Assembly (NCBI GenBank): GCA_023267855.1
Contig: JALNLN010000016.1
Coordinates: 1 to 36,979, forward strand
Direction of reading: 5' to 3'
DNA: 36,979 bases
Source of the DNA: Candidatus Geocrenenecus dongiae
GTDB lineage: Archaea > Thermoproteota > Nitrososphaeria_A > Caldarchaeales > Wolframiiraptoraceae
Positions within the stretch are counted from its first letter, which is position 1. Every line of letters begins with the position of its first letter. The position numbers were made by a program, and so were the translations under genes. The notes beneath the pieces were generated by a model. It was not told the origin of the DNA and searched no databases. It was given only the letters and a program-made list of their open reading frames with translations. Shown piece by piece: positions 8,164-29,219 of the stretch.

Positions 8164-9630
8164 TTAATCGAATACTAGTGCGTTGCCTACTAGTTCATGT
8201 ACTCCTCCAACTGTTATATTTAGTTTAAAGTGGTCAGAGTATTCTGTGAATGCTGCTTTATCTATAGCACATATACATGCGAGGAAGTTTGCTCCAGTTC
8301 TCTTTATAGCTTCTATCTTAGGTCTAACAGCTTTCAGTCTAAGCTCTATTGTTTCATCTGCGAGTAATCCTCCACCTGCACAACAACAGATAGTCTTCTC
8401 CCGATTAACATTCGGATCAAGTTCAACATAGTTTCTACAAACATTCTTAAGTATGTATCTAGGCTCTTCTATAAGCCCCATAACTCTCGCAGGATTACAT
8501 GAATCATGGTATGTGACTATGTATTGATCATTCTTGGATGGATCTAGTTTAAGCTTACCATGTTTTATTAAATCTGCTGTAAATTCACATATATGGACCA
8601 TTTTTGTTGAAGCTGCATGTTTAAATTTTGTTCCAGTTATAGGTGAGACAGGTTCTTCGAGGAAGTCTAGCGGCCCATTCATAGTATCCATGAATGCGTG
8701 GATAACTCTCCACATATGTCCACATTCTCCACCCAGTATCCATTTTACTCCTAGCCTTCTAGCTTCTTCAACAAGCTTCTTATTTATCTTCTTCATATGC
8801 TCGTATCCCAGCCATGTACCGAAGTTTCCACCTTCACTTGCATACGTGCTTATCGTATAATCTAACCCGATCTGGTGAAACATCTTTATAACTCCTTTAA
8901 GTGTTCCCCAGTGTGGTCCTCCGAAAAAGTCTGCTGAAGGTGGTACATACAGTATTTCCGCACCCTTCTTATTTATCGGTACTTTGATTTCTATTCCTGT
9001 TTCTTCTTTTATTTCTTCTTCAGCAAACTGTATTGCACTTAATAGTGCTGCTGGAGGTATACCCATATGGTTTCCTATTGTTTCACATTTAGCTATAGCT
9101 TCTGTTAGAGATCTCGGGCTGAGACCTATTGCTGTTAAGACTTCTCTAGCAGCTATCATTATTTCTGCTGTATCTATGCCGTAGGGGCAGAATACTGAGC
9201 ATCTTCTACACTGGGAACACTGGTAGAAGTATGTATACCAGAGTTCAACCATCTCTTCTGTAAGTTCTTCTGCTCCAACAAGTGCTCCAAAGATCTTCCC
9301 AGTTAATGTAAAGTATTTCTTGTAAACTGATCTGAATAAGTCTTGTCTAGCTACAGGCATATTGTTTGGATCTAGTGTTCCGAGGAAGAATGGGCACTTA
9401 TCTGTACATGCACCACATTTTACACATATGTCTAGGAATAGTTTTACAGATCTATACTTATTTACAACTTCCTCCATCTTCTTTAAAGCTATCTTCTTCC
9501 AGTCGGGTGGTAGATTGAATTCTTTATGACTCCACTCTCTTGGGAAAGGTAGTTCAAGAGTCTCCATATCACGTTTCCAAGTAGCGTATAGCTTATACTT
9601 TCTAGCTGGTAAACTCTTATCTATCTTCAC
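8164..9630 (-). CDS. dsrK: DsrK/HdrD-like iron-sulfur protein, paralogue 1
   Basis: A 488-aa soluble protein expected to pass electrons from the DsrM haems to a disulfide or DsrC trisulfide. Two [4Fe-4S] motifs lie at C69/C72/C75/C79 and C138/C141/C144/C148. The C-terminal catalytic part has GGECGH, YHDSC and CCCAGGG, the CCG-domain elements that bind the non-cubane cluster in HdrB/HdrD. The last CxxC is altered: it reads C454-A-I-D457, with Asp where the paralogue at 23389 has Cys. The start overlaps the dsrM stop by 4 nt. It closes the dsrC-Rieske-cytochrome b operon. DsrK, Hdr-like or a specialised relative are all possible. Confidence 0.8.
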   Translation of the reverse strand: MKIDKSLPARKYKLYATWKRDMETLELPFPREWSHKEFNLPPDWKKIALKKMEEVVNKYRSVKLFLDICVKCGACTDKCPFFLGTLDPNNMPVARQDLFRSVYKKYFTLTGKIFGALVGAEELTEEMVELWYTYFYQCSQCRRCSVFCPYGIDTAEIMIAAREVLTAIGLSPRSLTEAIAKCETIGNHMGIPPAALLSAIQFAEEEIKEETGIEIKVPINKKGAEILYVPPSADFFGGPHWGTLKGVIKMFHQIGLDYTISTYASEGGNFGTWLGYEHMKKINKKLVEEARRLGVKWILGGECGHMWRVIHAFMDTMNGPLDFLEEPVSPITGTKFKHAASTKMVHICEFTADLIKHGKLKLDPSKNDQYIVTYHDSCNPARVMGLIEEPRYILKNVCRNYVELDPNVNREKTICCCAGGGLLADETIELRLKAVRPKIEAIKRTGANFLACICAIDKAAFTEYSDHFKLNITVGGVHELVGNALVFD

Positions 9631-10436
9631 TTTCTCTCACCTCCAGGTCCTATCGTTTCAAGTTCGTCTTTAAACTTCTCGTAATATTCCTCCCAAGTCA
9701 TTATCTTGACTGGATAATCCCATGGATTAACATGTCTCCTCCATCTAGTTATGTTTCTCTTATTTCTCGTTGTTGAGAGTATCCATCCAATTAGGTGCGA
9801 TACCTTACTAAATGGTATGTAGATGAAGAGTATCTGGGCTAGTATGTAGTGTGTAAGGAAGTATATGTTATCTGGAGGAGCTGTAGGGTTGAAGGTCAGT
9901 AGACTATACATGTATGTGCTTACGGCTGAAATATCTATAAGCCCGAAACTCCTCATGTAGACTCCGAGGAAGACAATAGCTATCAACAATATCAAGATAA
10001 TGTAATCACTTATCTTCGAGATGTATCTAACATTCGGTAATACAATTCTTCTGACAAATAAGAATATGAGAGCGGCTAGGAAAAATATTCCAGAGTATAG
10101 TACAGCTTCATACCAGAAGTATCCTACGACATCCCAGATATAGTGGAAGTATACGTTAAGTATGTGAGATATCAATGTTATCGCTAAAGCTACGTGGAAT
10201 ACGTAACCTCCGATCCAGAGTTTCTTATTCCCTTTTAGTAAGCTTCTAAATACAAATAAATCTAGAGACATTCTCTTCAATACTCCTAGACGTGTTACTG
10301 GTGCAGGAGCTACGGGAAATCTGAATGGGATAGGTATTGATAACCATCTAACAACTCTGTATGCTAGCCCGAATATCAGAACGAAGAAAGCTATATAGGG
10401 CGTTATAGAACCTATGAAGAAGAGTATTGGATCCAT
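9627..10436 (-). CDS. dsrM: DsrM-like membrane cytochrome b (NarI family), paralogue 1
   Basis: A 269-aa membrane protein with about five or six helices, of the nitrate-reductase gamma/DsrM type, which binds two b haems and exchanges electrons with quinone. Likely haem ligands are His in GGYVFHVALAITLISHILN and in LTHYILAQ plus KVSHLIGW. The C-terminus is a charged cytoplasmic tail that could dock on DsrK, whose gene begins in an ATGA overlap. It starts one base after the stop of the 87-aa membrane protein. Its partners here are a Rieske protein and cytochrome b rather than DsrJOP. Confidence 0.8.
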   Translation of the reverse strand: MDPILFFIGSITPYIAFFVLIFGLAYRVVRWLSIPIPFRFPVAPAPVTRLGVLKRMSLDLFVFRSLLKGNKKLWIGGYVFHVALAITLISHILNVYFHYIWDVVGYFWYEAVLYSGIFFLAALIFLFVRRIVLPNVRYISKISDYIILILLIAIVFLGVYMRSFGLIDISAVSTYMYSLLTFNPTAPPDNIYFLTHYILAQILFIYIPFSKVSHLIGWILSTTRNKRNITRWRRHVNPWDYPVKIMTWEEYYEKFKDELETIGPGGERK

Positions 10437-10700
10437 CTACACTACACCTCCCTTAAGATACGTTAGGAGAAGTATTAGAGCAACCATAGCTATACCCATC
10501 GCAACCCACTCTTGATCATAATCTTCTCCACGATAATACACGTAAACTATGATGGCTAGTATTATCAATGTTGAAGCTATGTATCCTGCAGCAAGAACTT
10601 GGTGAGATACAATTATCGGGTTCAACGTCCATACAAAAATAGTTAATACGAGCTGGACTACTATGAGTAAAGCTAAAGCTAAATCTATCTTATTAACCAA
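10437..10700 (-). CDS. Small three-helix membrane protein of the Rieske/cytochrome b-Dsr operon
   Basis: An 87-aa protein with three predicted membrane segments: about residues 6-27, 34-56 and 66-83. Only one conserved-looking His (in SHQVLAAG) and an acidic loop RGEDYDQEW stand out. Its gene overlaps the end of cytochrome b by 8 nt and touches the DsrM start, so it is almost certainly part of the same complex. It could be an assembly or linker subunit, comparable in role to the small subunits of b6f or SoxL-type complexes. I do not recognise the family. Confidence 0.65.
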   Translation of the reverse strand: MVNKIDLALALLIVVQLVLTIFVWTLNPIIVSHQVLAAGYIASTLIILAIIVYVYYRGEDYDQEWVAMGIAMVALILLLTYLKGGVV

Positions 10701-12168
10701 TCTTCAACCACCTCCCTAACCAATTTTCCTTCTTAACGTTTCCAAGTTCTAAGTCAGCGGAGTATATTGTTCTCATTGCTTCGAGAGTAGACGTAGTGAG
10801 TAATGCTAAGCCGAGTATCGTAGACGGTACGCCTAGTCCTTCAAATATGGAACCATATAGGATTCTGAATGAGAGCCCTGCTGAAGCTATCGTTAAGATA
10901 AGTTTAACAGAATTCCAGACATATGTTTTTGAATTTGTGTGTAGAGTGGTTGCTCTAAGTTTAGCGAACTTCTCCCAAACCATCTCAGGCGGCTTCATTA
11001 TTCTTCTCTTATATACGTAGGCTGCTGTAAACACTATTATCGTTGGAATTATTATGCTGAGTACTGCGTGTTCTGACTTTATGTATGAGCCGGCTGTAAT
11101 CCACGCAAGATAAGTCATTAAACCTATCTGTATGATAATCCATACTCCGAGAGCTATGAAGAACGGTCTTTCAGAAGGATGCTTATCTTTCCATTTATCT
11201 ATGAAGGGTAGGAAGATGAAGAGGAGAGTTACTATCAACAGGACTGTTATGAATATCTTGAAACCTGTTTCTCCGAGAACCTCAATAAACTCTGTCTTCG
11301 CTATAGCGTAAGTCCACATGAAATACCATTCAGGCATAGGTATTGTTACAACACCCGGAGTATATTTCTCATGGAGGCCGAAGGGATAGATTATTGAGGC
11401 TACGACTATAGAAGCGAAGAATACACATGCAAGTATAACGAAGTAGAGGAAAACGTGGGGAAACCATGGAACCAGCTTCTTGTCTTCTTCAGGTAAATCT
11501 CTACTTAAAGATTCTGTTATTCCATGAACTTCGAAAATATGGAGCTTAATTGCTAAAAGTATTATGAGCACTGCTGGTAGAAGGACTGTATGGAAGACAT
11601 AGAATCTCCTAAGTAACTCTACGTCCGTACCATATCCTGCAACAAGGTATTCTAGGAAGTTGCTAAGAGGGTATGGAAGATGTTTGATCATAGTTATCCC
11701 AAAGCCGACCGCCGCGTAAGATAAAGCATACCAAGGAAGTAGATATCCTGTGAACCCCATCAACAGAGTCACCAATCCCATAAGCATTCCAACAATCCAC
11801 ATAAGTTCTCTAGGCTTCTTGTAAGCTACTACGAAATAATTTCTCATAAAGTGGAGGAATGTTATAAAGATCATTGAGAATGCTGAGTATATGTGTATGT
11901 TTCTTATGAGATTGCCGAAGGGGACCTCCACCATTATCCTGCTTACAGATTCCCAAGCTGTATCTGGATGAGGCTCATAGTACTGTAGCATTATCACTCC
12001 AGCTATTCCAGCACTGAAGAAAGCAAGAACAGCTAATGCTCCCAGCCAGTAGGATGGATTCTTGAGAGAGTACATTGGCGCAGGTCTAAGAATAGTTTTT
12101 GTAAAACCGAAATTTTCGTCAAGCCATCTTGCAAACCTATCAACTATACTTTTTCCCTCTTCAGACAT
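10693..12168 (-). CDS. Cytochrome b of a Rieske/cytochrome b complex
   Basis: A 491-aa fused cytochrome b. The N-terminal four-helix part carries H92 and H106 (14 apart, normal for helix B) and H193 at the start of helix D. The expected partner in helix D is Lys208, with a His two residues later (H210), which is unusual. The quinol-oxidation motif PEWY is intact at 279-282, followed by further helices and a C-terminal extension of about three more. It would oxidise quinol and feed the Rieske protein encoded 4 nt upstream. No cytochrome c or oxidase gene is near; the downstream genes are dsrM and dsrK types. Confidence 0.88.
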   Translation of the reverse strand: MSEEGKSIVDRFARWLDENFGFTKTILRPAPMYSLKNPSYWLGALAVLAFFSAGIAGVIMLQYYEPHPDTAWESVSRIMVEVPFGNLIRNIHIYSAFSMIFITFLHFMRNYFVVAYKKPRELMWIVGMLMGLVTLLMGFTGYLLPWYALSYAAVGFGITMIKHLPYPLSNFLEYLVAGYGTDVELLRRFYVFHTVLLPAVLIILLAIKLHIFEVHGITESLSRDLPEEDKKLVPWFPHVFLYFVILACVFFASIVVASIIYPFGLHEKYTPGVVTIPMPEWYFMWTYAIAKTEFIEVLGETGFKIFITVLLIVTLLFIFLPFIDKWKDKHPSERPFFIALGVWIIIQIGLMTYLAWITAGSYIKSEHAVLSIIIPTIIVFTAAYVYKRRIMKPPEMVWEKFAKLRATTLHTNSKTYVWNSVKLILTIASAGLSFRILYGSIFEGLGVPSTILGLALLTTSTLEAMRTIYSADLELGNVKKENWLGRWLKIG

Positions 12169-12172
12169 CTAC

Positions 12173-12862
12173 CTACACCTTCTCTGTTAGAAGAGTTTCA
12201 GATAAAAGCCTCTTCCCAAGCATAATTCTCTTCAATTCTTCAGGGTTCGTAGAACATTGTGTAACGCCTGGAACAGCTGGAGCTGGAGGAGCTAAACTGA
12301 CAGCATAAATATCTCCAGAAGCCTCATCATACTCTAATAACACTCTACATAAACTACAGAATGGTGGCCCGGTTAAAACGCTACCTCTCTCTTCAAGATC
12401 GTATAGAGCTGCATGAGCAGGACAGTACAACATGTTCTTCTCTGGATATAGTTCTAAAATGTTTGGAGGAACAGTCTTCAGGTACGTTAAGATATTTGGG
12501 TCCCGTTTATCTTTAGGAGGAATGTATATTGTCCCATAGTATCTAGCATGCTGACATATCATTACATAGCCGACAATATCCTTGTCTGGACCAACACCTT
12601 CAGGTACAGCTTTACCCAGCTTCACCAATATACATGGAATATCAGCAATTGGATAAGAGAATAGGTACCATGTATTCTCCTTCAGGTCTTTTATGTTCGC
12701 TAGTCTGAGTTTAGGCCATTCAGGTATCTCAAGTTGAGGTGCAGTAACAGATTTTAAGAGAGATAAAAGACTGCCTAGACCAAAGATAAAAGATAATGTT
12801 GTAAGTATTTTTAAAGCTCTACGTCTTTCGACAACTACAGGTTCTCCTCCCTCATGGGACAA
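12173..12862 (-). CDS. Rieske iron-sulfur protein without the usual disulfide
   Basis: A 229-aa protein starting at TTG, with VERRRALKIL followed by a hydrophobic helix (about residues 14-36), a Tat-like or membrane anchor. The [2Fe-2S] ligands are C103-x-H105 and C147-x-x-H150. In respiratory Rieske proteins the motifs are CTHLGC and CPCHG; here the disulfide cysteines are Tyr108 and Ala149. An extra C169-x-x-C172 follows the proline loop TGPPF. The insertion between the two ligand pairs is about 40 residues. It lies 41 nt behind dsrC and 4 nt ahead of cytochrome b. A lowered midpoint potential is an inference. Confidence 0.85.
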   Translation of the reverse strand: MSHEGGEPVVVERRRALKILTTLSFIFGLGSLLSLLKSVTAPQLEIPEWPKLRLANIKDLKENTWYLFSYPIADIPCILVKLGKAVPEGVGPDKDIVGYVMICQHARYYGTIYIPPKDKRDPNILTYLKTVPPNILELYPEKNMLYCPAHAALYDLEERGSVLTGPPFCSLCRVLLEYDEASGDIYAVSLAPPAPAVPGVTQCSTNPEELKRIMLGKRLLSETLLTEKV

Positions 12863-12903
12863 TCATATCACCTTTCTTAGTTTTCAGAGAAATGGCTGTC
12901 TAT

Positions 12904-13224
12904 TTAGACGCAGCCTGTAGGTTTCGGTAGGCCAGCTACTTTACATGCACCTTTAGCTGGACCTGAAGGGAAGAGTTCATATATCTTCTGTAAGCTGAAC
13001 CCTGTTTGTTTCACAAGCATTCTTATTGGTGGAGCGACACCATACTTTAGCCAGTACTCTCTAAGATAATTGATAACTTTCCAGTGTTCTTCAGTAAGCT
13101 TTTCTATACCTTCAAAGTGTTTAGCGAAGAATTCTGCTACTTCAGGGCTCCACTTCTCAGGTTCCTGCAAGAACCCGTCTTCATCAACTTCAAGTTTCTG
13201 ACCTTTAAACTCTACATACGGCAC
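12904..13224 (-). CDS. dsrC: DsrC, sulfur-carrier substrate of sulfite reductase
   Basis: A 106-aa protein of the DsrC/TusE family. It has the helical core with YLREYWLKYGVAPPIRMLVK and the flexible C-terminal arm GACKVAGLPKPTGCV with both redox cysteines, C94 and C105, ten residues apart. TusE-type proteins have only the last one, so this is a true DsrC: it takes sulfur from DsrAB-bound sulfite as a trisulfide and is then reduced by a membrane complex. The start is GTG, with a GGTGGGATAG ribosome site 7 nt ahead and a TATA-like run near 13245-13255. It heads the operon with Rieske, cytochrome b, DsrM and DsrK. Confidence 0.93.
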   Translation of the reverse strand: MPYVEFKGQKLEVDEDGFLQEPEKWSPEVAEFFAKHFEGIEKLTEEHWKVINYLREYWLKYGVAPPIRMLVKQTGFSLQKIYELFPSGPAKGACKVAGLPKPTGCV

Positions 13225-13395: not shown

Positions 13396-14691
13396 TTAAT
13401 GTTTTGATTGTATTCTATCTGGATCTTCTGTATCGAAGAAGAGTTGGAGCAGGTTTACTAAATCGTTGTAATTTAACTGTCTATAGTTTTTCTTCAAGTT
13501 TTCTATGAATGGATTCATTATTCTCTTTACTATTGCTTTAGACATACACTCCATTATCTTCAAGGTTCTCTCATCTACAGTTGCCTCCACCTTTCTGATC
13601 ATTGATAGTGCTTCTTCAAGTTCTTCTAATCTAATATTCTCAATACGCTTATAGATCTTAGAGATTATTTCGTTCACTTGCATACTCTCAAACTTCTCTA
13701 AGAATCTTTCTACTTCTTTCTCTACGATATTCTCAACTTTCTTTACTTCCCCCATCTTATCGTAAATATATTCGTCTACGTATTCTTTTATATCGTCTAG
13801 AGTTAAGAGTTTGACTGAAGATATTTCTGAGATTTCTGGGTCTACGTTTCTGGGGACGGATAGGTCTACGATTATCAAGGGTTTCTCTCTTTTCTCTAAT
13901 GCTTCTTCTACTTTCTCTCTTGTCAGTATGTAGTGTGGGGCGCTTGTTGTAACGAATACTATGTCTGCGATTGGAAGGTAGTTTGGTATTTCATTTAACT
14001 GTAACGCTATTCCACCACTTATATTTGCAAGTTGTTTAGCTTTCTCGTAAGTTCTATTTGCAAATAGTAGTGTTAGCTTTCTATAGCTCTTCCCTACTAG
14101 CGTAGAGTTTACTAGCTCTCCTGTTTCTCCAGCTCCAATTATCATTATTACTTTATCGTTTAAGTCTCTAAGCATTTTCTCAACGACTTCTACAGCTATC
14201 TGGGGAAGAGAAAGTCTTCTTTTATCTATCTCTGTCTCAGTTCTAATCTTTTTACCGAGTCTGATAGCTTCTTGGAAAATAATTTTCATCGTTCTTGATA
14301 GGCTTCCAATTGTTAAAGCTTTATAGTATGCGTCTTTAACTTGACGTAGAATTTCCTGCTCACCTATAACCATAGATTCTAGTCCAGATGCAAGCCTAAA
14401 GATGTGTCGAACTACATCTACACCTCTAATTATCGTTAAATCTTTACTGAGTTCTTGATCTTCAACCAACTCTTCCCAGAATTCTATTAGATATCCCGGA
14501 TCTCTTCCACTACTTAACTCTACGTAAAGCTCTACTCTATTACATGTCTGGATTATTGCTACACCTAAAACACCGTCTATTTCTTTAAATACTCTTAGAG
14601 CAAAATCCAAGTCTTTATAAGCTGCTTTATCGAGACGAGCGATAGGCACGTTCTTATGATTCAAGAGAAAACCATAGAGATTCTCTAACAT
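13396..14691 (-). CDS. hemA: Glutamyl-tRNA reductase
   Basis: A 431-aa enzyme that reduces glutamyl-tRNA to glutamate-1-semialdehyde with NADPH, the committed step of the C5 haem route. Seen are the catalytic Cys in IIQTCNRVELYVE (about residue 49), the GLESMVIGEQEILRQVKDAY active-site segment, the Rossmann loop IGAGETGELV, and the long helical C-terminal dimer domain. It feeds HemL, encoded about 4 kb away. It stands alone on the minus strand, downstream of cbiA and separated from it by the hydrolase gene on the other strand. Confidence 0.95.
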   Translation of the reverse strand: MLENLYGFLLNHKNVPIARLDKAAYKDLDFALRVFKEIDGVLGVAIIQTCNRVELYVELSSGRDPGYLIEFWEELVEDQELSKDLTIIRGVDVVRHIFRLASGLESMVIGEQEILRQVKDAYYKALTIGSLSRTMKIIFQEAIRLGKKIRTETEIDKRRLSLPQIAVEVVEKMLRDLNDKVIMIIGAGETGELVNSTLVGKSYRKLTLLFANRTYEKAKQLANISGGIALQLNEIPNYLPIADIVFVTTSAPHYILTREKVEEALEKREKPLIIVDLSVPRNVDPEISEISSVKLLTLDDIKEYVDEYIYDKMGEVKKVENIVEKEVERFLEKFESMQVNEIISKIYKRIENIRLEELEEALSMIRKVEATVDERTLKIMECMSKAIVKRIMNPFIENLKKNYRQLNYNDLVNLLQLFFDTEDPDRIQSKH

Positions 14692-14848
14692 AGATCTCCT
14701 CTACTCCATCAATACTTGACTACCTCATTCCTTAAAACACTTTTCTCTACAATAACTCTCTACCTAACCTATCACATTTTTTAGAATTATATTCGTGTAT
14801 CTTGAAAACGTATTTATTTTTGATGGATTTTGTATATGTTGATCTAGG

Positions 14849-15667
14849 TTGCCTTACCTGAGGGATGAGATTTATTATGAAGTTTATGGTGAGGGGCGTC
14901 CGCTCGTTTTGATACATGGTGCTTGGGCATCTCATGAATGGTGGAGGATGCAGATACCTGAGTTATCAAAATATTATAAAGTTGTAGCCATGGATGTTAG
15001 AGGTCATGGGAAGTCTGCTAGATTAGAGAAACCGACTACGGTTGAAAAGCTGGCTGAAGATTTGGATATGCTTCTCGATCATCTGAAAGTAGATGAAGTT
15101 GTTATGATAGGCTGGTCTATGGGGGGTATGATATCTACACAATATTATTTCATGCATCCAGAGAAGGTTAAGGCACTCATCCTGCTTGCAAGTAGATTAT
15201 TTAAGAGACCTAGAATGCTTCTAGAAGCATATCTAAGAGTTTGGAGAGAGATGCTGACCGTGTTTATGGATTTCGCAGATTATGAAGGATTTGAATCAAC
15301 CAAATACGAAGACTTCGTAAGAAGAGAATTGGAGAAATCCTTCCACCCAAACACTCCACGTGAAGTTATAGAATGGGCTGTGAGAGACTTGACAGAGAAT
15401 AGGAGAAGAGACTACCTAAATCTTGTTAAGACTCTTAGTAGGTACGATGCATCGAAGAAGCTAGGTGAGATCAAGGTCCCCACACTTATAATTGCTGGTG
15501 ATAGAGACGATAGGGTACCATTAGATTATGTGAAGAGAGCTAAAGAAATGATTCCAAACTCTAAGCTAATCATACTAGAGGGATATGGACACTACTTTCT
15601 CTTAGAAGCACCTGAAAGAGTCAATAAGGAAATACTGGAATTCCTCCGTAGCATAGGGTACTACTAG
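14849..15667 (+). CDS. Alpha/beta hydrolase
   Basis: A 272-aa hydrolase starting at TTG. It shows the oxyanion HGAW at about residue 24, the nucleophile elbow GWSMGG near residue 92, the acid in AGDRDDRVP and the catalytic His in GYGHYFLLEAPE. These give a complete Ser-Asp-His triad. The start is fixed by a TAG just upstream in frame with the ATG at 14836. It lies between two convergent siroheme-related genes, and its stop overlaps that of cbiA by 4 nt. The substrate is unknown; an ester or lactone hydrolase is likely, and a tetrapyrrole link is only suggested by position. Confidence 0.8.
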   Translation: MPYLRDEIYYEVYGEGRPLVLIHGAWASHEWWRMQIPELSKYYKVVAMDVRGHGKSARLEKPTTVEKLAEDLDMLLDHLKVDEVVMIGWSMGGMISTQYYFMHPEKVKALILLASRLFKRPRMLLEAYLRVWREMLTVFMDFADYEGFESTKYEDFVRRELEKSFHPNTPREVIEWAVRDLTENRRRDYLNLVKTLSRYDASKKLGEIKVPTLIIAGDRDDRVPLDYVKRAKEMIPNSKLIILEGYGHYFLLEAPERVNKEILEFLRSIGYY

Positions 15668-17034
15668 CTTTCTTCAACCCATTTAAGCATTCTCAAGAAT
15701 ATTCTATAGTTATGTAGAACGTGTAGGTGCGTATACATCGCTAGAATATTTTCTTTAATTATTCCATCATGTACACCGTTTACACCGTATCCTTTCTTGA
15801 CTTTGAAAGCATAATCTACTTCTTCACGTAGGTTGATCTTCGAGTAGTGGAATTCATGTCCAACGACTTCTGAGCCAGGATCTGCGAGAGGATTACCTCT
15901 TAGAGCTTCTAGATACGTGTATCCGTGAGCGACAGGTTTCTCAAACATTTCTACAAATCCATCTATTAATCCTACCATCTCATACTCTTTATTATCGAAT
16001 GCTTTAACTTTTTCTGAAAGGTACATAAGTCCACCACACTCAGCGTAGATCTTCATCCCCTTCTCCACATTTCTAACAATCTCTTTCTTCATAGTTTTAT
16101 TCTTCTCGAGAGCTTCGGCATACACTTCTGGGAACCCTCCACCGATGTAGAGCATGTCTATCTCTGGTAGCTTAGAATCTTTTAGAGAATTTATTGTTAC
16201 TATTCTTTGAGCAGTATTCTGGATGTACTCGACGTTTTCTGGATAGTAGAATGAGAAAACATCATCTATCATTACGCCGACTCTTACATTTACTTTAACT
16301 CTTGGGAAATCTAATTCTATTTCTGGGAGATCTTCAGCTTCTCTTGAGATTTCGATAATCTTATCTATCTCTATATGTTCTCCAACAAACTTTATTGCTT
16401 CCTCCACTTCTATCATCTCTCTACTTCTCTCTGAGACAGGTGTTAAACCTAAGTGTCTATACCTCATCTTCTCTTCAACTATCCTACTTCTAGGAACTGT
16501 TCCAACAACCTCTACATCTTTAAACTCTTCTCTGAAAGCTTTGACAATCTTTTCTTTTTGACGTTCATTAGCAATATTGTTTATTATCACTCCTCTTATC
16601 CTCACTTTTCTATCGAACTCTCTAAAACCTCTCAGTATTGGGATGAGACCTCTGTTTATTCTCTCAGCATTCATTACGAGTATCACGGGAGTCCTCAGAA
16701 TTTTAGATATTTCAGCCGTGCTACCTTTCTCTGTAACCCCATCTACACTATCATATAGTCCGAAGACACCTTCAATTACAGCTACATCAGAGTTAGATGA
16801 ATTTTTTATGAAAGAAGCTAAAATAGTCTCTTCGGAAAACATTACTGAATCGAGATTTCTAGAATATGTTCCAGAGAAGTATGTGTGATAAGAGGGGTCT
16901 ATAAAGTCTGGTCCAACTTTGAATGGTTGCACTCTTAAACCATGTTCTCTAAGCTTCTTTATCAAAGCTATCGTTACAGTCGTCTTCCCAGATTTCCCAC
17001 TCACACTGGAGATAAGTATACGTGGAATCTTCAA
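15664..17034 (-). CDS. CbiA/DsrN/CfbB-family a,c-diamide synthase
   Basis: A 456-aa ATP- and glutamine-dependent amidotransferase. The N-terminal P-loop SSVSGKSGKTT starts at about residue 8; the C-terminal glutaminase domain has IGGGFPEVYAE, the Cys nucleophile in YAECGGLMYLSE and the His in MYTHLHVLHNYRIF. Family members amidate two side chains of cobyrinate (CbiA), of Ni-sirohydrochlorin (CfbB) or of siroheme (DsrN, which makes the sirohaem amide of some Dsr enzymes). The neighbours are all siroheme genes, and no cobalamin or F430 genes are in view, so a DsrN-like role is favoured. It starts directly after the stop of the precorrin-2 dehydrogenase gene. Confidence 0.8.
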   Translation of the reverse strand: MKIPRILISSVSGKSGKTTVTIALIKKLREHGLRVQPFKVGPDFIDPSYHTYFSGTYSRNLDSVMFSEETILASFIKNSSNSDVAVIEGVFGLYDSVDGVTEKGSTAEISKILRTPVILVMNAERINRGLIPILRGFREFDRKVRIRGVIINNIANERQKEKIVKAFREEFKDVEVVGTVPRSRIVEEKMRYRHLGLTPVSERSREMIEVEEAIKFVGEHIEIDKIIEISREAEDLPEIELDFPRVKVNVRVGVMIDDVFSFYYPENVEYIQNTAQRIVTINSLKDSKLPEIDMLYIGGGFPEVYAEALEKNKTMKKEIVRNVEKGMKIYAECGGLMYLSEKVKAFDNKEYEMVGLIDGFVEMFEKPVAHGYTYLEALRGNPLADPGSEVVGHEFHYSKINLREEVDYAFKVKKGYGVNGVHDGIIKENILAMYTHLHVLHNYRIFLRMLKWVEES

Positions 17035-17706
17035 TTACAATCCCTCTCCAATCTCTACACTATTTTCCTTTAGAATCTCTAGAATCTTCTTAGTAGCAGA
17101 ATCTATGTCCCCGGTCTTAACATACCGTCTAAACTCTTGGTCGCTATAAACTCTACGGTATATCTCCATCCTCTTTTTCGGCGTCAAATTTGCTTCTTTG
17201 AGAATCTTTTTTAGACGATGTATTAGCTCTGCAAGTAAGTGGAGTTCCATATCCTTCTCAAGCACTTCCCTGATCTTGTATAAAGCTTCTCTCGCAACCA
17301 TGCTGCTTTTTCCTTCAGTTGTTAAAGCTACTCTAAACGGTCCGACAGATGTGTCTATCGGTACAACTAGATCTGTCTCAAATGCATCATTAGCTAAATT
17401 CAGTAACCGTTTATGTTTTTCTACAATCTTCTTGATGTATTCATTATGCTCTCTTGTATCCAACGTTACCATGACGATATCTGATTCCTTTACAAGCTTC
17501 TCAAGTTTCTCTTCTTCAACAACATCTCCTTCAACTAACTCTATAAATCTTCTAGAAGCTAACTCAAGTATCCTTTCATCGAAGCTCCTACTATAGACTA
17601 TTATCCTAGCACCTGTCTTACAGTATTTCTCAGCTCTTTTGAATCCTTCTTCACCTCCACCTATTATTAGTACTGTTTTCCCAGACATTTCAATAAAGAA
17701 CGGCAT
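17035..17706 (-). CDS. Precorrin-2 dehydrogenase / sirohydrochlorin ferrochelatase
   Basis: A 223-aa protein of the Met8/CysG N-terminal type that oxidises precorrin-2 with NAD and, in many members, inserts iron to make siroheme. I start at MPFFIEMSGKTVLIIGGGEE; a longer frame to 17895 runs through the divergent hemB and is not credible. Visible are the NAD loop GGGEEGFKRA, the Asp/Ser region TLDTREHNEY, and NLANDAFETDLVVP, the family's active-site region. A second start is MRMPFF at 17712. It is followed at once by the cbiA-like gene. SUMT is a separate gene (20970). Confidence 0.85.
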   Translation of the reverse strand: MPFFIEMSGKTVLIIGGGEEGFKRAEKYCKTGARIIVYSRSFDERILELASRRFIELVEGDVVEEEKLEKLVKESDIVMVTLDTREHNEYIKKIVEKHKRLLNLANDAFETDLVVPIDTSVGPFRVALTTEGKSSMVAREALYKIREVLEKDMELHLLAELIHRLKKILKEANLTPKKRMEIYRRVYSDQEFRRYVKTGDIDSATKKILEILKENSVEIGEGL

Positions 17707-17730
17707 TCTCATACAGTTCTTCTCAAAGAA

Positions 17731-17754
17731 TTCTCTAAGAGAAATGCTTAAAAA
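17731..17754. promoter_or_regulatory. Divergent siroheme promoter with small palindrome
   Basis: The 73 nt between the two divergent starts (17706 and 17780) hold a perfect 6-bp inverted repeat TTCTCT-A-AGAGAA at 17731-17743 and a TATA-like GCTTAAAAA at 17746-17754, about 25 nt before the hemB ATG. The palindrome sits where a repressor could block both directions. Confidence 0.35.
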
Positions 17755-17779
17755 GATTACACTACTAAAATTAATCTTG

Positions 17780-18799
17780 ATGATGCAGTCATTTAAAGCT
17801 GGTTTTCCACAAATCAGGATGAGGAGGCTTAGAAAAATCAAAACTTTGAGAAATCTCATAGCTGAAGAACATGTAGATTTATCTTCACTGGTCATGCCGT
17901 TGTTTGTCCGTGAAGGTTTAATCGGTCGAGAGAAGATAGATAGTATGCCAGGTCAGGAGAGATTATCTATAGATGAATTAGTTAAAGAAGTTTCAAATTT
18001 ACTTGAAGTTGGTGTTAAGTCTATACTCCTCTTCGGCATTCCTTCTAGGAAAGATGATTACGGATCCTCAGCGTATAGTAGAGATGGAGTTGTCCAGAAG
18101 GCTATTAGAGAAGTTAAGAAAAATTTTGGAGACGACGTTCTAGTTATATCTGATATCTGTTTATGTCAGTACACTAGTCATGGGCACTGCGGTATAGTTG
18201 TAGAAAAGAATGGAAGGAAGATAGTTGATAATGATACAACATTAGAGGTTCTTTCTAAAATTGCTTTAAGCCATGCTGAGGCAGGTGTAGATATCGTGGC
18301 CCCTTCAGATATGATGGATGGAAGAGTTGGAGTTATAAGAAGATCTCTAGATGAAGAAGGATACACGGATGTCGCCATAATGTCCTATTCCGTGAAGTAT
18401 GCTTCATCCCTCTACGGCCCATTTAGAGATGCAGCTCACTCTTCACCTAGATTCGGAGATAGGAGAAGTTATCAGATGGATCCTAGAAACATTAGAGAAG
18501 CTTTGAGAGAAGTTGAGCTGGATATAGTTGAAGGCGTTGATATAGTGATGGTTAAGCCTGCTTCATGGTATCTAGACGTGATATCTCTCGTGAAGAAGAA
18601 CTTCAAGATACCTTTGGCCGCTTACTCTGTAAGTGGAGAGTATACTATGATTAAGCTTATGGCTGAGAAGGGTTTGGTGGATGAGAAGCAAGCCGTCTGG
18701 GAGCAACTACACTCGATAAAGAGGGCTGGGGCAGACATCATAATAACGTATTATGCTAAAGAGTATGCGAGGTGGGTTAAAGATGGTCTCATCAGCTGA
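17780..18799 (+). CDS. hemB: Porphobilinogen synthase
   Basis: A 339-aa enzyme that joins two 5-aminolevulinates into porphobilinogen. I start at MMQSFKAGFPQIRMRRLRK, matching the family start; the longer open frame reads into the divergent gene. Key elements are the zinc site DICLCQYTSHGHCG (three Cys, a zinc-type enzyme), APSDMMDGRVG, the lysine in YSVKYASSLYGPFRDA, and the Schiff-base lysine in VMVKPASWYLD. It is the first gene of a tight operon hemB-hemL-hemC-cobA-hemD in which each gene overlaps the next. The ATG follows a TATA box at leaderless distance. Confidence 0.95.
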   Translation: MMQSFKAGFPQIRMRRLRKIKTLRNLIAEEHVDLSSLVMPLFVREGLIGREKIDSMPGQERLSIDELVKEVSNLLEVGVKSILLFGIPSRKDDYGSSAYSRDGVVQKAIREVKKNFGDDVLVISDICLCQYTSHGHCGIVVEKNGRKIVDNDTTLEVLSKIALSHAEAGVDIVAPSDMMDGRVGVIRRSLDEEGYTDVAIMSYSVKYASSLYGPFRDAAHSSPRFGDRRSYQMDPRNIREALREVELDIVEGVDIVMVKPASWYLDVISLVKKNFKIPLAAYSVSGEYTMIKLMAEKGLVDEKQAVWEQLHSIKRAGADIIITYYAKEYARWVKDGLIS

Positions 18800-20060
18800 A
18801 CTATATGAAAGAGCACGGAGACTCATACCCGGAGGTGTAAATAGCCCCGTTAGAGCATATGATCCATACCCATTCTTCACTAAGAAAGCCTCAGGATCAA
18901 GAATACATGATGTTGATGGTAAGGTCTACATAGACTACGTGATGGGTTACGGTGCTCTACTACTAGGTCATTCTCCAGAGATAATAATACAGACTCTCAG
19001 AAAAGCAGTAGAAGATGGTGTACTCTATTGTACGCCTACAGAAGAAGAAGTAATCTTAGCTGAAAAGATCTGTAAACTCTATCCATCGATAGAGATGGTT
19101 AGATTAGCAAATACGGGATTGGAGGCAACGATGCATGCTATAAGGCTGGCCAGAGGATACACGGGTAGAAAAAAGATACTGAAATTCGAGGGATGTTATC
19201 ATGGGGCACATGACTCACTATTAGTTAAGGCAGGTTCAGGAGCATTAACTTTCGGGGCCCCTTCAAGTCTAGGTGTTCTAGAAGATTTAGCTAAACATAC
19301 GTTAATCTCAAGATACAACGATATAGAACTTACCGAGAAGATCGTTAGAGAAAACGCTGAAGATCTAGCAGCAATAATAGTTGAGCCAATTCCAGTAAAC
19401 GTTGGATTAATAAAACCTAAGAAAGGATTCCTAGAAGCTTTGAGAAGATTAGCAGATGAGGTTGGAGCTGTCTTGATATTCGATGAAGTAGTCACAGGTT
19501 TTAGGCTTGCTCCTGGAGGTGCACAAGAATACTTCAACGTTAAAGCTGATATAACAACTCTAGGTAAAGCTCTCGGTGGAGGTTTACCTATATCAGCTTT
19601 CGGTGGAAAGAGAGAGATTATGGAGAACTTATCACCAGTCGGGAAAGTGTATCAAGCTGGAACATTTAGCGGAAACCCACTCTCAACCAAAACAGCTTTA
19701 ACAGTAGTAGAATACATTGAGAAGAACAGGCAGATATATGGAGAGATGAGAAGAATGGTGGAGAGACTCTGTAGAGCTGCGAGAGAGTTCATAGAAGATC
19801 TCAAGATAGATGCGACAGTAAACAATCTGGAGTCTATGTTCCAGGTATTCTTCACTTCTAGAGAGATCTTAAGCTACGATGATGTTTTAACATCCGACTT
19901 AGGTAGATTTAAGAAATTCTTCCATAATCTACTGAAGCAGGGCGTCTTCATACCTCCAAGCCAGTTTGAGACATGCTTCTTCTCAACAGCACATACAGAC
20001 GAAGATTTAGAGAAGACTATAGAAGCCTTTGGCAGAGCGTTCGCTGAGTGTCGGGGATGA
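18783..20060 (+). CDS. hemL: Glutamate-1-semialdehyde 2,1-aminomutase
   Basis: A 425-aa PLP enzyme that turns glutamate-1-semialdehyde into 5-aminolevulinate. The start MVSSAELYERARRLIPGGVN fits the family; it overlaps hemB by 17 nt. Visible are the GGVNSPVRAY substrate loop, NTGLEATMHAIRLARG, the PLP aspartate in ILIFDEVVTGFR, and the PLP lysine in ITTLGKALGGGLPISAFGG. The C-terminal part ends in QFETCFFSTAHTDEDLEKT, also typical. Stop and hemC start overlap in ATGA. Confidence 0.95.
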   Translation: MVSSAELYERARRLIPGGVNSPVRAYDPYPFFTKKASGSRIHDVDGKVYIDYVMGYGALLLGHSPEIIIQTLRKAVEDGVLYCTPTEEEVILAEKICKLYPSIEMVRLANTGLEATMHAIRLARGYTGRKKILKFEGCYHGAHDSLLVKAGSGALTFGAPSSLGVLEDLAKHTLISRYNDIELTEKIVRENAEDLAAIIVEPIPVNVGLIKPKKGFLEALRRLADEVGAVLIFDEVVTGFRLAPGGAQEYFNVKADITTLGKALGGGLPISAFGGKREIMENLSPVGKVYQAGTFSGNPLSTKTALTVVEYIEKNRQIYGEMRRMVERLCRAAREFIEDLKIDATVNNLESMFQVFFTSREILSYDDVLTSDLGRFKKFFHNLLKQGVFIPPSQFETCFFSTAHTDEDLEKTIEAFGRAFAECRG

Positions 20061-22694: not shown

Positions 22695-23381
22695 ATGTAT
22701 GAGTATATGCTACTCATCGTTGGAATCATATTGCCTTATCTCACATTAGCAGTGTTCGGTATAGCATTGGCTTATAATTTCTTTAAATGGATGTTTCTAC
22801 CTAGACCAGTAATGTGGGCTATCTTCCCAGCTAAAGAAAATACAGTAAGCATACTTCTTACTATTGCGAAGAGAATCTTTTCATTACCAGGTCCCAGGAA
22901 GTTTGATAAACTGATATTTACGCTAGCATGGATGTTCCATATAGGGTTAATCGTAAGTCTCTCATTACACGCCAAATATATCTTTCTTCCCCACTTACCC
23001 TTTGAATATGAAATGGGTTCAATAGCAGGATTGTTTGCTGCTATTGGCTCCTTTGGGTTCATCATCAGGAGATATTATGATAAGAGAGCAGAATCGTATT
23101 TTGCAGACTATTTCGCCTTAGTACTACTAATAATTACATTGTTACTTGGCACATATATTCGAATCCTTAAGTTGGTGGATCCAGCTCAGTTATGGGGCTG
23201 GGTTCAAGGGATCCTAAGTTTGAACCCCGTCTTACCACCTACTAATACTCTATTTTTAATCCACCTATTCTTTGCACAGATCTATATGATGTATCTTCCA
23301 TTTAAGACCCTTATACATCCAATAGCGATATTCTATGGGCAGAAAGTAATTCTTGATAAGAGACATATTGGAAAGGAGTGA
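22695..23381 (+). CDS. dsrM: DsrM membrane cytochrome b, paralogue 2
   Basis: A 228-aa NarI/DsrM-type protein with five membrane helices. Likely haem-b ligands are the His residues in WMFHIGLIVSLSLHAKYIF and in FLIHLFFAQIYMMYLPFKTLIH. It would oxidise menaquinol-type quinones and hand electrons to DsrK. It ends GKRHIGKE just before the dsrK start, and the AAAGGAG before its stop serves as the dsrK ribosome site. It is 41 aa shorter than the paralogue at 9627, mainly at the C-terminus. It stands directly upstream of dsrAB, so it is the likelier classical DsrM. Confidence 0.85.
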   Translation: MYEYMLLIVGIILPYLTLAVFGIALAYNFFKWMFLPRPVMWAIFPAKENTVSILLTIAKRIFSLPGPRKFDKLIFTLAWMFHIGLIVSLSLHAKYIFLPHLPFEYEMGSIAGLFAAIGSFGFIIRRYYDKRAESYFADYFALVLLIITLLLGTYIRILKLVDPAQLWGWVQGILSLNPVLPPTNTLFLIHLFFAQIYMMYLPFKTLIHPIAIFYGQKVILDKRHIGKE

Positions 23382-23388
23382 TGTAAAG

Positions 23389-24771
23389 ATGATGGAAAAG
23401 TTATTTGATGAATATAGAGGTCTCTCTGATAAAAAGATTCGCCCCAATGAACCTAAATCTGAACAATTTCTCAAAGCATTTAAAGAACTATTAGATAAGA
23501 AAAATAACTGGGCTTTTCTACTACCCTTTAAGCTAAGCTTAGAAGCATGTACACATTGTGGAACATGTGCTGAAGCATGCCCAGTTTATATTGGAAGTGG
23601 GAGAGAGAAGATCTACAGCCCAGTCTACAGAGCTGACATGCTTAGGAGGATCTATAAGAAGTACTTTACGTTAAGTGGGAGAATCTTTGGAAGACTGGTG
23701 GGCGCTAAAGAAATTACTGAGCGAGATGTTAATGCTTTAGCTGAAGCAGCTTACAGATGTACGATATGTAGAAGATGTGCTTTAGCATGTCCATTTGGTT
23801 TAGATAATGGATTAATAATGAGAGAAGCGAGAAAGATCTTAGCAGAACTAGGCATAGTTCCAGATGAATTGAAAGAAGAAGGTGTAGAAAATCAGATTAC
23901 ATATGGTAGCGCTCCTAAGATACCTTATGAAGCTTTAATGAATATCTTAGATTTTGTAAAGAGTGAAATCGAGGAAAATAGAAAGAACGTTAACATAGAA
24001 GTACCTGTTGATAAAGTCGGCGCAAAATACCTAATCATAAATAATGCAGGAGATTACCTATCTTTCCTAGATACCATTAGAGGGATCGTCGAGATAATGA
24101 ATTATGTAAATGAAGATTGGACATTCAACTCTCAAAATACAGGTGTATTTGACAACGTTAACTATGGGTTATTCTATAGTGATAAAGACATGATACGTGT
24201 AATTAGAGCGCATTTAGAAACGTTTAAGAAGCTTAAGCCAGAATACGTGGTTGTCGGTGAATGTGGTCATGCTTATGATGTTTTAGGCCACCTAATGAAG
24301 GATTTAATTCCCGCTGAAGAAAGACCCTTCAAAGTAATCCACATAGTTGAGTTATATGATAAATTCTTAAGAGAGGGGAAGTTAAAACTCGATAAAGATA
24401 AGAACTCTGCACCAGTCACTTTCCACGACTCATGTAAAATTGGAAGATGTGGCGGAATCTACGATGAACCTAGAAGATTGATAGCTGCCTCATGTAGAGA
24501 TTTCAGAGAAATGTACCCAAATAGAGAGTATAATTATTGTTGTGGTGGTGGTGGAGGGTTCGCTTTGATGAGTAAATACAATTTCCTAGATTTTAGAATG
24601 AAGACGTATGGAAAATTAAAAGTACAGCAAATTAAAGATACAGGGGCCTCGACGCTGATTACTATATGTGCAAACTGTAAAAGACAGTTTCTCGACATGG
24701 TAAGCTACTACAATCTTAACACCACAGTATCGGGCTTAAGCGAAATAATTGCAAATGCCTTAGTATACTAA
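23389..24771 (+). CDS. dsrK: DsrK iron-sulfur protein, paralogue 2
   Basis: A 460-aa HdrD-like subunit thought to reduce the DsrC trisulfide. I start at MMEKLFDEYRG, 10 nt behind GGAAAGGAG. It has two ferredoxin motifs, CTHCGTCAEACP and CTICRRCALACP, and a complete CCG catalytic part: VGECGHAYD, FHDSCKIGRC, NYCCGGGGGF and ICANCKRQF. All ligands of the non-cubane cluster are present, unlike the paralogue at 8164. It forms a two-gene unit with dsrM and lies 213 nt ahead of dsrA. No J, O or P subunits are present. Confidence 0.88.
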   Translation: MMEKLFDEYRGLSDKKIRPNEPKSEQFLKAFKELLDKKNNWAFLLPFKLSLEACTHCGTCAEACPVYIGSGREKIYSPVYRADMLRRIYKKYFTLSGRIFGRLVGAKEITERDVNALAEAAYRCTICRRCALACPFGLDNGLIMREARKILAELGIVPDELKEEGVENQITYGSAPKIPYEALMNILDFVKSEIEENRKNVNIEVPVDKVGAKYLIINNAGDYLSFLDTIRGIVEIMNYVNEDWTFNSQNTGVFDNVNYGLFYSDKDMIRVIRAHLETFKKLKPEYVVVGECGHAYDVLGHLMKDLIPAEERPFKVIHIVELYDKFLREGKLKLDKDKNSAPVTFHDSCKIGRCGGIYDEPRRLIAASCRDFREMYPNREYNYCCGGGGGFALMSKYNFLDFRMKTYGKLKVQQIKDTGASTLITICANCKRQFLDMVSYYNLNTTVSGLSEIIANALVY

Positions 24772-24984: not shown

Positions 24985-26160
24985 ATGTCTGAGACTCCTC
25001 TCTTAGATGAGTTAGAGAAGGGTCCTTGGCCGAGTTTTGTTAAAGAAATGAAGAGGATGGCCGCTGTAAAGCCTTACGCTAAGAATGTCCTGTTACAGCT
25101 TGAGAGATCATACAGAGATAAGATTACCCACTGGAAGCATGGTGGTATAGTAGGAGTAAGAGGGTATGGAGGAGGGGTTATTGGAAGATATAGTGATCTA
25201 CCCCCAGAGGAGATGCCTACACCTGAAGTCCACACACTTAGAGTAGCCCAACCAGCAGGATGGTTCTATTCAACTAAAGCTCTTAGAAAACTATGTGATG
25301 TTTGGGAGAAGTATGGTACAGGCTTTATAAATCTACATGGCTCAACTGGAGACATCATACTACTTGGTGCACCTACAGCAAACTTACAACCATGTTTTGA
25401 AGAACTAGTATCGATTGGTTTCGACTTGGGTGGATCGGGAAGCGATGTTAGATCTCTCAGTTGCTGTGGTGGACCTGCATTCTGCCAGTGGTCTTGTATA
25501 GATACTCTCGACATGTATCACGATTTAACCATGGAGTTCCAAGACGAGATTCATAGACCAAGGTTTCCATATAAGTTTAAGATAAAGATCTCTGGATGTC
25601 CAAATGATTGTGTAGCAGCTCTTGCACGTGCGGATCTAGCTATAATCGGTACATGGAAAGATTCTATAAAGATTGATCAAGAAGCTGTAAGAGAGTATGC
25701 AAAACAAGGTGTAAACATTTCTAAGATTGCTGCTCGCTGTCCTACACAAGCTTTAGAATGGGATGGAAAAGAACTCAAAGTTGTACCAGAAGATTGTGTG
25801 AGATGTATGCTGTGTTTATCCGCTCTTCCAAAAGCAATTTTACCTGGAGATGAGAAAGGAGCAACAATACTCCTAGGTGGTAAAGCAACAATACTGCAGG
25901 GAGCATTTCTCGGATGGGTTATAGTGCCATTCATTAAAGCTGATAAACCATACACAGAAATAAAAGAGTTGATAAGGAAGATCCTGGACTGGTGGGATGA
26001 AAATGCAAGAACACGAGAAAGAATTGGAGAACTAGTGTATAGGCTAGGCATGAGAACGTTCTTAAAAGCTATAGGTCTCCCACCTGTTCCACAGATGATC
26101 TACGTACCGAGAGCCAACCCATACTACTTCTGGAGTCCAGAAGAACTTGAAGAAAAGTGA
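24985..26160 (+). CDS. dsrA: Dissimilatory sulfite reductase, alpha subunit
   Basis: A 391-aa subunit of the siroheme enzyme that reduces sulfite to sulfide, passing sulfur to DsrC. The coupled [4Fe-4S]-siroheme site is complete: C161-x5-C167 ([18 protein letters not shown]) and C205-x3-C209 (KISGCPNDC). The inserted ferredoxin domain has C252 plus C271-x2-C274-x2-C277. The C-terminal part ends with the family pattern [10 protein letters not shown] and [13 protein letters not shown]. No frame damage is seen. dsrB follows after 12 nt with its own ribosome site. A DsrD-like gene, DsrC and two DsrMK pairs nearby suggest the reductive direction. Confidence 0.97.
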
Positions 26161-26172
26161 GGTGGTGGGAGA

Positions 26173-27246
26173 ATGTCTGGAGAAAAGAAATACATAACAG
26201 ATGTAGGTCCACCACACTACAAAGATATGGTTCACCCAGTACTCTTGAAAAACTATGGTAAATGGAGATACCATGAATATGTTGCTCCAGGAATAATAAA
26301 GCATGTCTCACTAAATGGTGAAGAAGTATACATGGTTAGAGCAGCTATACCGAAAATAGTAAGCATATACTTTGTTAGAGAACTATGTGATATTGCAGAT
26401 AGATATTCAGATGGTTATGTGAAATTCACCAGTAGACATAACGTAGAATTCATAGTCACAGATAAGAATAAACTTGAAGGTTTATTGAAAGAATTGAAAG
26501 AGAAGGGGCTACCTGTAGGAGGTACAGGTCGTTCTCTTAAAGCGATAATACATACTCAGGGATGGGTTCACTGCCATACGGCGGTAATAGATGCACCTGG
26601 ATTAGCTAAAGCACTCTACGATGAACTATATGAATACTTTACTAGAGACGATCTTCCAGGAAAACTTAAGATAGCTATAGCATGCTGCTTAAACATGTGT
26701 GGTGCTGTGCACTGCTCAGACCTAGCATTCGTAGGAATGCACAGGAAGCCACCAATAGTAAATGATGATATTGTTAGTAGGCTGTGTGAGATACCCACAC
26801 TCGTCGCAAGCTGTCCAACAGCAGCTATCAGACCTGCACCTGAGAAGAAATCTGTAATAGTTAATGAAGAGAGGTGTATGTATTGTGGAAATTGCTACAC
26901 TGTATGTCCTGGAATGTTCATACATAACCCGAAGTACGATTGTATCTCAATGTGGGTTGGAGGTAAAGCTAACGCTGGAGGCCCACCAGACTTCTCTAGA
27001 CTAGCAATACCATACCTACCTAATAATCCACCTAGATTCCCAGAAGCAGTCCAAGCTGCTAAGAACGTTATCGAGACATGGATAAAACATGCTAAACCAG
27101 GTGAGAGGATAGGAGACTGGATAAAGAGGATAGGCTGGGAAAGATTCTTCACATTAACAGGAATACCGTTTACAGATAAACACATCGATGACTTCATATT
27201 CTCAGTACCAACATTCAGAACAACAACAAACTTCAAGTGGAAGTAA
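26173..27246 (+). CDS. dsrB: Dissimilatory sulfite reductase, beta subunit
   Basis: A 357-aa partner of DsrA. It has HTQGWVHCHTAVIDAPG with C134 and the AIACCLNMCGAVHCSD site (C171, C172, C176, C181) that binds siroheme and its cluster, then a ferredoxin domain with C214 and C235-x2-C238-x2-C241-x3-C245. The ending RIGWERFFTLTGIPFTDKHID is characteristic of DsrB. The ATG follows GAGGTGGTGGGAG. A T-rich run 35-46 nt after the stop may end the dsrAB message. Confidence 0.97.
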   Translation: MSGEKKYITDVGPPHYKDMVHPVLLKNYGKWRYHEYVAPGIIKHVSLNGEEVYMVRAAIPKIVSIYFVRELCDIADRYSDGYVKFTSRHNVEFIVTDKNKLEGLLKELKEKGLPVGGTGRSLKAIIHTQGWVHCHTAVIDAPGLAKALYDELYEYFTRDDLPGKLKIAIACCLNMCGAVHCSDLAFVGMHRKPPIVNDDIVSRLCEIPTLVASCPTAAIRPAPEKKSVIVNEERCMYCGNCYTVCPGMFIHNPKYDCISMWVGGKANAGGPPDFSRLAIPYLPNNPPRFPEAVQAAKNVIETWIKHAKPGERIGDWIKRIGWERFFTLTGIPFTDKHIDDFIFSVPTFRTTTNFKWK

Positions 27247-29119: not shown

Positions 29120-29136
29120 GCAATCCCCGGAAAGAT

Positions 29137-29192
29137 GTTTATAAGTTGAAAAATAAAAGCGTAACTTTTTTCCATGTAAAAGTATATAAATC
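29137..29192. promoter_or_regulatory. Back-to-back promoters of radical SAM and YeiH genes
   Basis: GTTTATAAG (29137-29145) is the minus-strand TATA candidate, 18 nt before the TTG of the radical SAM gene. AGTATATAAATC (29181-29192) is the plus-strand box, about 28 nt before the ATG at 29220. Both imply short or absent leaders. Confidence 0.45.
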
Positions 29193-29219
29193 TTCCCTAC
29201 ATAATTACTTTTGACCACT

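Follow-up and report, generated by a model that had tools for sequence, protein, structure and literature searches.

How DsrMK complexes pay for the reduction of DsrC, and whether energy is conserved in the process, is an open question. It is raised again by a stretch of DNA from Candidatus Geocrenenecus dongiae (contig JALNLN010000016.1, positions 1 to 36,979; the whole stretch of 36,979 nucleotides is called the window here), in which genes for DsrC, DsrM and DsrK share one operon with genes for a Rieske protein and a cytochrome b. To judge from its sequence, this operon of Geocrenenecus, hot-spring archaea of the Aigarchaeota, suggests a hybrid complex of a kind not yet described that would serve the respiration of sulfite. 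The best reading is that an archaeal Rieske/cytochrome b module lacking its customary acceptor would be joined to DsrMK for electron transfer from quinol to the DsrC trisulfide.

The six-gene block and its conservation

The six genes lie on the minus strand and run from 13224 to 8164 in the order given below.

12904..13224 (-): dsrC; 106 amino acids (aa); PF04358, E=4e-38; redox cysteines C94 and C105
12173..12862 (-): Rieske [2Fe-2S] protein; 229 aa; RR-type N-terminal membrane/Tat-like segment
10693..12168 (-): cytochrome b; 491 aa; PF13631/PF00033, E~1e-32; N and C halves in a single chain
10437..10700 (-): small membrane protein (m87); 87 aa; about three helices by transmembrane prediction
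9627..10436 (-): dsrM1; 269 aa; NarI-like di-heme b membrane subunit; PF02665 (Nitrate_red_gam)
8164..9630 (-): dsrK1; 488 aa; two [4Fe-4S] motifs (CxxCxxCxxxC sets) and a CCG domain

From dsrC to dsrK the successive spacings are 41, 4, -8, 0, and -4 nucleotides. These open reading frames, coordinates, and spacings agree with those of the original prediction, which had been made from the sequence alone, and the motifs that it named (PEWY, the Rieske ligands, the DsrC cysteines, and the DsrK clusters) were all located. Its word "fusing" is apt for the adjacency and overlap of the genes; no fused polypeptide is encoded.

In the Rieske protein the cluster ligands are in place as C103-x-H105 (CQH 103-105) and C147-x-x-H150 (CPAH 147-150). 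The protein has no Pfam match in the profile search and scores 71 bits against the small subunit of arsenite oxidase (TIGR02694), under the cut-off of 95.65. Its profile and its modelled fold, of which the core alone is usable, resemble the structures of AioB and SoxF. In cytochrome b the Qo motif PEWY is found at 279-282 and the heme bL ligands H92/H193 are intact, while the heme bH side has H106 and K208, with H210 at +2. DsrM1 scores 169 bits against NF038037 (cut-off 300) and is thus under the cut-off; its di-heme ligands, H81/H91 and H196/H214, are kept across all 16 aligned DsrM sequences. DsrK1 exceeds the cut-off of NF045796 (610 bits vs 400) and has no sequence match in PDB.

The order dsrC-Rieske-cytochrome b-m87-dsrM-dsrK is kept in all five Geocrenenecus species genomes, and the last three junctions (-8, 0, and -4) are identical in each of them. 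The flanks of the operon vary among these congeners: one genome has hemA elsewhere than next to dsrC, and in two of the five no LOG-family gene was found after dsrK. Identity to the congeners is 91-98% for DsrC and 72-74% for the Rieske protein. For cytochrome b, matches at 73-74% identity come from Candidatus Geocrenenecus huangii, Ca. G. arthurdayi, and two metagenome-assembled genomes labelled Aigarchaeota / Nitrososphaerales archaeon. Since the metagenome-assembled genomes are independent assemblies from different projects, a binning error is unlikely. Wherever dS is finite, dN/dS lies between 0.02 and 0.13 for all six genes, with synonymous sites near saturation; by this measure all six are under purifying selection.

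Beyond the genus, the distribution was followed in sampled genomes of the phylum, bacteria and Korarchaeota being outside the scan for the six-gene order. Geocrenenecus alone exceeds the DsrK cut-off (NF045796) among the 398 genomes sampled, with ~610 bits for DsrK1 vs <=358 in the other genera. A Rieske or cytochrome b gene was found within the fetched stretch at none of the 15 other sampled Thermoproteota dsrMK loci, and the other cytochromes b of the family and order belong to a different branch. The original prediction had proposed to look for the gene order in relatives and in other archaea. It is conserved in the Geocrenenecus genomes (5/5 species) and was seen at none of the 15 other loci. 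A Chloroflexota match (L056) was dropped as a relative; it is an ordinary b6-like protein, and no Rieske or dsr genes were recognised by eye in its list of open reading frames.

No description of an operon joining Rieske/cytochrome b with dsrMK was found in the open literature searched. For this lineage dsrAB has been reported before (PMC6053391, PMC10591310), and the genus name Geocrenenecus is from PMC9246946; the six-gene operon is not described in the parts consulted. The gene order is a hybrid of two known kinds and is apparently undescribed, its nearest precedent in principle being the haloarchaeal NarBC-NarGH.

Cytochrome b and the Rieske protein

In an alignment to cytochrome b6 from PDB, K208 lines up with a heme bH ligand, the second of the His residues in helix D. 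Of the four His that bc1/b6f complexes require for two b hemes, three are present. Lys is found at this position in all five Geocrenenecus genomes, encoded by differing codons and with His at +2, while all class-level and phylum-level sequences first aligned have His. The idea that Lys208 is unique to Geocrenenecus was rejected once five more Lys-type cytochromes b had come out of a Rieske profile search. These relatives (G299, G228, G379, G277, and G317) come from the phylum-wide search and from reading of the neighbourhoods.

Lys-type cytochromes b outside Geocrenenecus: L266 10010-11254; L267 5166-6665; L268 7426-8679; L269 7973-9343; L270 7797-9185

In all five the bH position is Lys and the +2 residue is Tyr or Phe; their identity to the Geocrenenecus cytochrome b is 34-37%. 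The Lys-type sequences form one group in the tree with moderate support (83/89), which covers at least three families outside Geocrenenecus and has a small third protein alongside. As far as these alignments go, Lys at the bH position is a trait of the clade, and His at +2 is special to Geocrenenecus. Lys may bind the heme, H210 may bind it, or heme bH may be absent. With the customary second His of heme bH missing, the textbook electron flow of bc1 cannot be assumed.

The relatives have the order Rieske-cytochrome b-small protein without dsrMK, and no dsr genes are nearby. The m87 profile matches proteins beside cytochrome b in G299 (4.7e-7), G228 (6.8e-9), and G379 (1.4e-5); in G277 and G317 a small protein at the expected position is under the threshold of the profile. 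By these matches the 87-aa protein is a homologue of the third, small subunit in the related archaeal Rieske/cytochrome b clusters. The neighbours differ. In G379 (L267 4183-7306) the small subunit beside the Lys-type cytochrome b is fused to a cupredoxin (copper-binding) domain, and the Rieske protein carries an N-terminal cytochrome-b5-like domain. G277 has an EB_dh (CbsA-like) gene ahead of its Rieske gene, and in G299 and G228 a UbiA prenyltransferase is nearby. Within a single archaeal Rieske/cytochrome b clade, partners have been exchanged (a cupredoxin, a CbsA-like protein, and DsrMK), and a heme ligand usually regarded as invariant is substituted.

The Rieske protein of Geocrenenecus is altered as well. 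Both disulfide Cys are missing (Y108 and A149 stand at those positions), as is the H-bonding Ser; the motifs read CQHARY and CPAHAA/G, and the Pro-loop position reads GPPFCSLC. The Rieske proteins of the relatives keep both disulfide Cys (CQHLGC or CEHMGC with CPCHGS or CCCHGS) and have GPAP or GPAA in the Pro loop. Among the Rieske proteins compared, Geocrenenecus alone has this remodelling around the cluster. By sequence comparison the partner-docking tip is changed and the cluster ligands are not. A low Rieske potential as the result of disulfide loss was considered, and this idea is weakened by the AioB proteins, some of which lack the disulfide and in which it does not track the midpoint potential (PMC3758308). 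A second, ordinary Rieske-type protein (CTHLQC/CPCHGS) is present in two genomes, G004 (L051 7964-8473) and G001 (L050 1473-1706); no neighbouring cytochrome b was recognised.

Acceptors, oxidases, and other dsr genes in the genome

Genome-wide statements refer to a 98%-complete genome that was read in stretches. It has one DsrC (the operon gene gives the single match), one Rieske protein and one cytochrome b of the operon kind, and two DsrMK pairs. The second pair lies in the window outside the hybrid operon and adjoins dsrAB.

22695..23381 (+): dsrM2; phmmer match to DsrM1 at E~1e-22; di-heme ligand histidines kept
23353..24771 (+): dsrK2; NF045796 313 bits, under the cut-off
24985..26160 (+): dsrA; TIGR02064 539 bits, over the cut-off
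26173..27246 (+): dsrB; TIGR02066 489 bits, over the cut-off

What could the Rieske protein feed? The original prediction held that cytochrome c is absent and DsrJOP missing, and both statements stand. None of the seven CXXCH open reading frames of the genome resembles an exported heme-c protein; from their sequences we take them to be PheT, TatC, MoaA-like, and other non-heme proteins. A motif scan of the genome found no cupredoxin. DsrJOP is absent, as the sole NrfD protein of the genome and its iron-sulfur partner sit in a molybdopterin reductase operon.

A COX1-like protein (L095 8892-11084, G000:C32) was tried as the electron acceptor of the Rieske protein. Where GHPEVY would supply one CuB ligand, its sequence is GLDLIADGN and the His is missing; subunit II contains no Cys, which rules out a CuA entry point. 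With the CuA Cys absent and one CuB His missing, the candidate was dropped. Both features recall some nitric oxide reductases, and the two proteins look like a heme-copper enzyme of that type. A pair of neighbouring CydA-like proteins (496 and 370 aa; L194 15866-18468, G000:C33) resembles archaeal CydAA' and is found in 5/5 congeners. The original prediction had the operon genes right and left out the second dsrMK beside dsrAB, the CydA-like pair, and the oxidase that resembles nitric oxide reductases.

ATP sulfurylase was found in one of the five Geocrenenecus genomes (L211, G002:C22:12027-12653) and not in the genome of the window; sulfite rather than sulfate is therefore the likely substrate. 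There are one or two weak DsrE-family matches per genome, and no DsrEFH set was seen in Geocrenenecus genomes.

Other genes of the window were noted. A YeiH-family transporter (29211-30605) and a radical-SAM protein (28070-29284) lie beside dsrAB. Distant homologues of both are near dsr genes in L105 and L106, with a YeiH piece in L107, and since they recur near dsr genes elsewhere, sulfite is a possible substrate of the transporter. Positions 13396-22465, between the two dsr clusters, contain a siroheme/heme block with hemA, CobB/DsrN-like, SirC-like, hemB, hemL, hemC, cobA, and hemD genes. A TnpB-like protein is encoded at 35690-36844 and has a close copy at L050 336-1424 (G001).

Possible electron routes and known systems

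The reading of the operon as one membrane respiratory assembly, with the module of Rieske protein, cytochrome b, and small subunit standing in for DsrJOP on DsrMK, is given an even chance. From the genes we infer complex formation, its direction, the route of electrons, and the energetics. On this simplest account the module would add another membrane subunit able to react with quinone, together with an iron-sulfur protein on the outside, the roles that DsrJOP holds elsewhere. Oxidation of quinol would take place at the Qo site of PEWY type. With neither a cytochrome c nor a cupredoxin to receive its electrons, the Rieske cluster would hand them to the di-heme DsrM, which would take them across the membrane to DsrK; DsrK would then reduce the DsrC trisulfide, the product of DsrAB in sulfite respiration. 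The second electron, from heme bL, may reach DsrM or the quinone pool via the altered heme bH site.

Such an assembly is supported by the constancy of the block amid varying flanks, by its invariant junctions and purifying selection, and by the presence in it of the sole DsrC and the sole Rieske protein and cytochrome b of this kind, in a genome where no acceptor or DsrJOP was found. It is also supported by the modules of the relatives, which have other partners in the same neighbourhood (the fused cupredoxin in G379 and the EB_dh/CbsA-like gene in G277), and by the remodelling of the Rieske protein at the cluster tip, where partners dock. Haloarchaeal NarB/NarC with NarGH is a precedent for Rieske/cytochrome b clustered with a terminal reductase (PMC7754194, PMC4683180), and quinone cycling between DsrMK and DsrJOP was proposed earlier (PMC8076601).

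Several points weigh on the other side. dsrMK2 beside dsrAB could by itself carry out ordinary DsrC reduction, and most sulfite-reducing archaea get by on DsrMK alone. We know of no precedent for direct transfer from a Rieske protein to DsrM. The structure model of cytochrome b (pLDDT, predicted local distance difference test, 38) is too poor for heme geometry. The driving force from menaquinol to DsrC is small, which makes a proton-pumping Q-cycle hard to pay for. The original suggestion of quinol oxidation coupled to DsrMK and DsrC keeps its basis in a linkage that is conserved genus-wide and under purifying selection, with no cytochrome c or cupredoxin acceptor found, while an energy-yielding menaquinol Q-cycle is thermodynamically doubtful.

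Two separate co-transcribed complexes, a generic Rieske/cytochrome b and DsrMK linked via the quinone pool alone, seem somewhat unlikely. The Rieske/cytochrome b/small-subunit set does occur without dsr genes in other archaea, DsrMK alone suffices in other sulfite-reducing archaea (PMC10504309), and NarB of Haloferax did not co-purify with NarGH (PMC7754194). However, the genome has no other recognisable acceptor for the module, the -8/0/-4 junctions do not vary across species, and the Rieske tip is remodelled in Geocrenenecus alone. Quinol bifurcation, already raised in the original prediction, is unlikely. One Qo electron would go via the Rieske protein to a higher-potential acceptor and the other via low-potential heme(s) to DsrM/DsrK, so that the former would pay for the difficult DsrC reduction. 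In its favour, DsrC reduction by menaquinol is near or above thermoneutral. Potentials of -80 mV and -143 mV are given for menaquinone and the CoM-S-S-CoB heterodisulfide (PMC4683180). The PEWY Qo motif and the bL ligands are intact, and an altered bH ligand would suit a low-potential branch leaving the normal Qi path. But the required high-potential acceptor was not found in the genome, and since relatives without neighbouring DsrMK share the Lys substitution, it has not arisen for bifurcation. A new quinol-bifurcating supercomplex, in which a cytochrome b with His/Lys (or missing) bH would pass low-potential electrons directly to DsrMK and then to DsrC while the remodelled Rieske protein feeds another partner, is decidedly unlikely.

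Least probable is oxidative operation, with electrons passing from DsrC thiols or persulfide to DsrK, DsrM, the quinone pool, and a quinol oxidase. The CydA-like pair in all five genomes would fit it, as would the sulfide:quinone reductase that PMC6053391 reports in Aigarchaeota, the dsrAB-bearing bin included. Yet DsrAB groups near reductive bacterial-type enzymes, according to PMC10591310 and PMC6053391; the DsrE-family matches are weak, with no DsrEFH set; and a quinol oxidase has no need of Rieske/cytochrome b.

If the operon does encode one assembly around DsrMK, a natural hybrid with its DsrJOP half swapped for Rieske/cytochrome b would give an independent handle on DsrMK energetics, because Qo-site inhibitors and electron paramagnetic resonance of the Rieske cluster become usable probes.

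With the DsrMKJOP complex of sulfate reducers and sulfur oxidisers, the Geocrenenecus operon shares the di-heme b DsrM, DsrK with its CCG domain, and the partner DsrC. Both operons also encode a further quinone-reactive subunit in the membrane and an iron-sulfur protein on the outside. It differs in having a Rieske protein, cytochrome b, and small membrane protein in place of DsrJ, DsrO, and DsrP, and in a DsrM1 under the curated DsrM cut-off. Like the minimal DsrMK of Thermoproteota, it has no JOP and belongs to a sulfite-reducer gene set, and the pair beside dsrAB is of that same type; DsrK1, however, is higher-scoring, and no other sampled locus has Rieske/cytochrome b. The archaeal modules with cupredoxin or CbsA-like partners share the Rieske protein, the bH Lys, and the small membrane subunit, but those of G379, G277, G317, G299, and G228 keep the Rieske disulfide and GPAP/GPAA, and their operons encode either outside acceptors or no acceptor.

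Qo PEWY, the bL ligands, the Rieske ligands, and a Rieske gene beside cytochrome b are common to cytochrome bc1/b6f, while Geocrenenecus lacks cytochrome c1 or f and the Rieske disulfide and has Lys for His at bH. AioB, the Rieske protein of arsenite oxidase, provides the closest solved structures; in Geocrenenecus the Rieske gene sits beside cytochrome b, with no AioA gene in the operon. Haloarchaeal NarB/NarC-NarGH likewise has Rieske/cytochrome b clustered with a terminal reductase and no cytochrome c. There NarGH is outside, whereas DsrK of Geocrenenecus is cytoplasmic and would be reached through DsrM.

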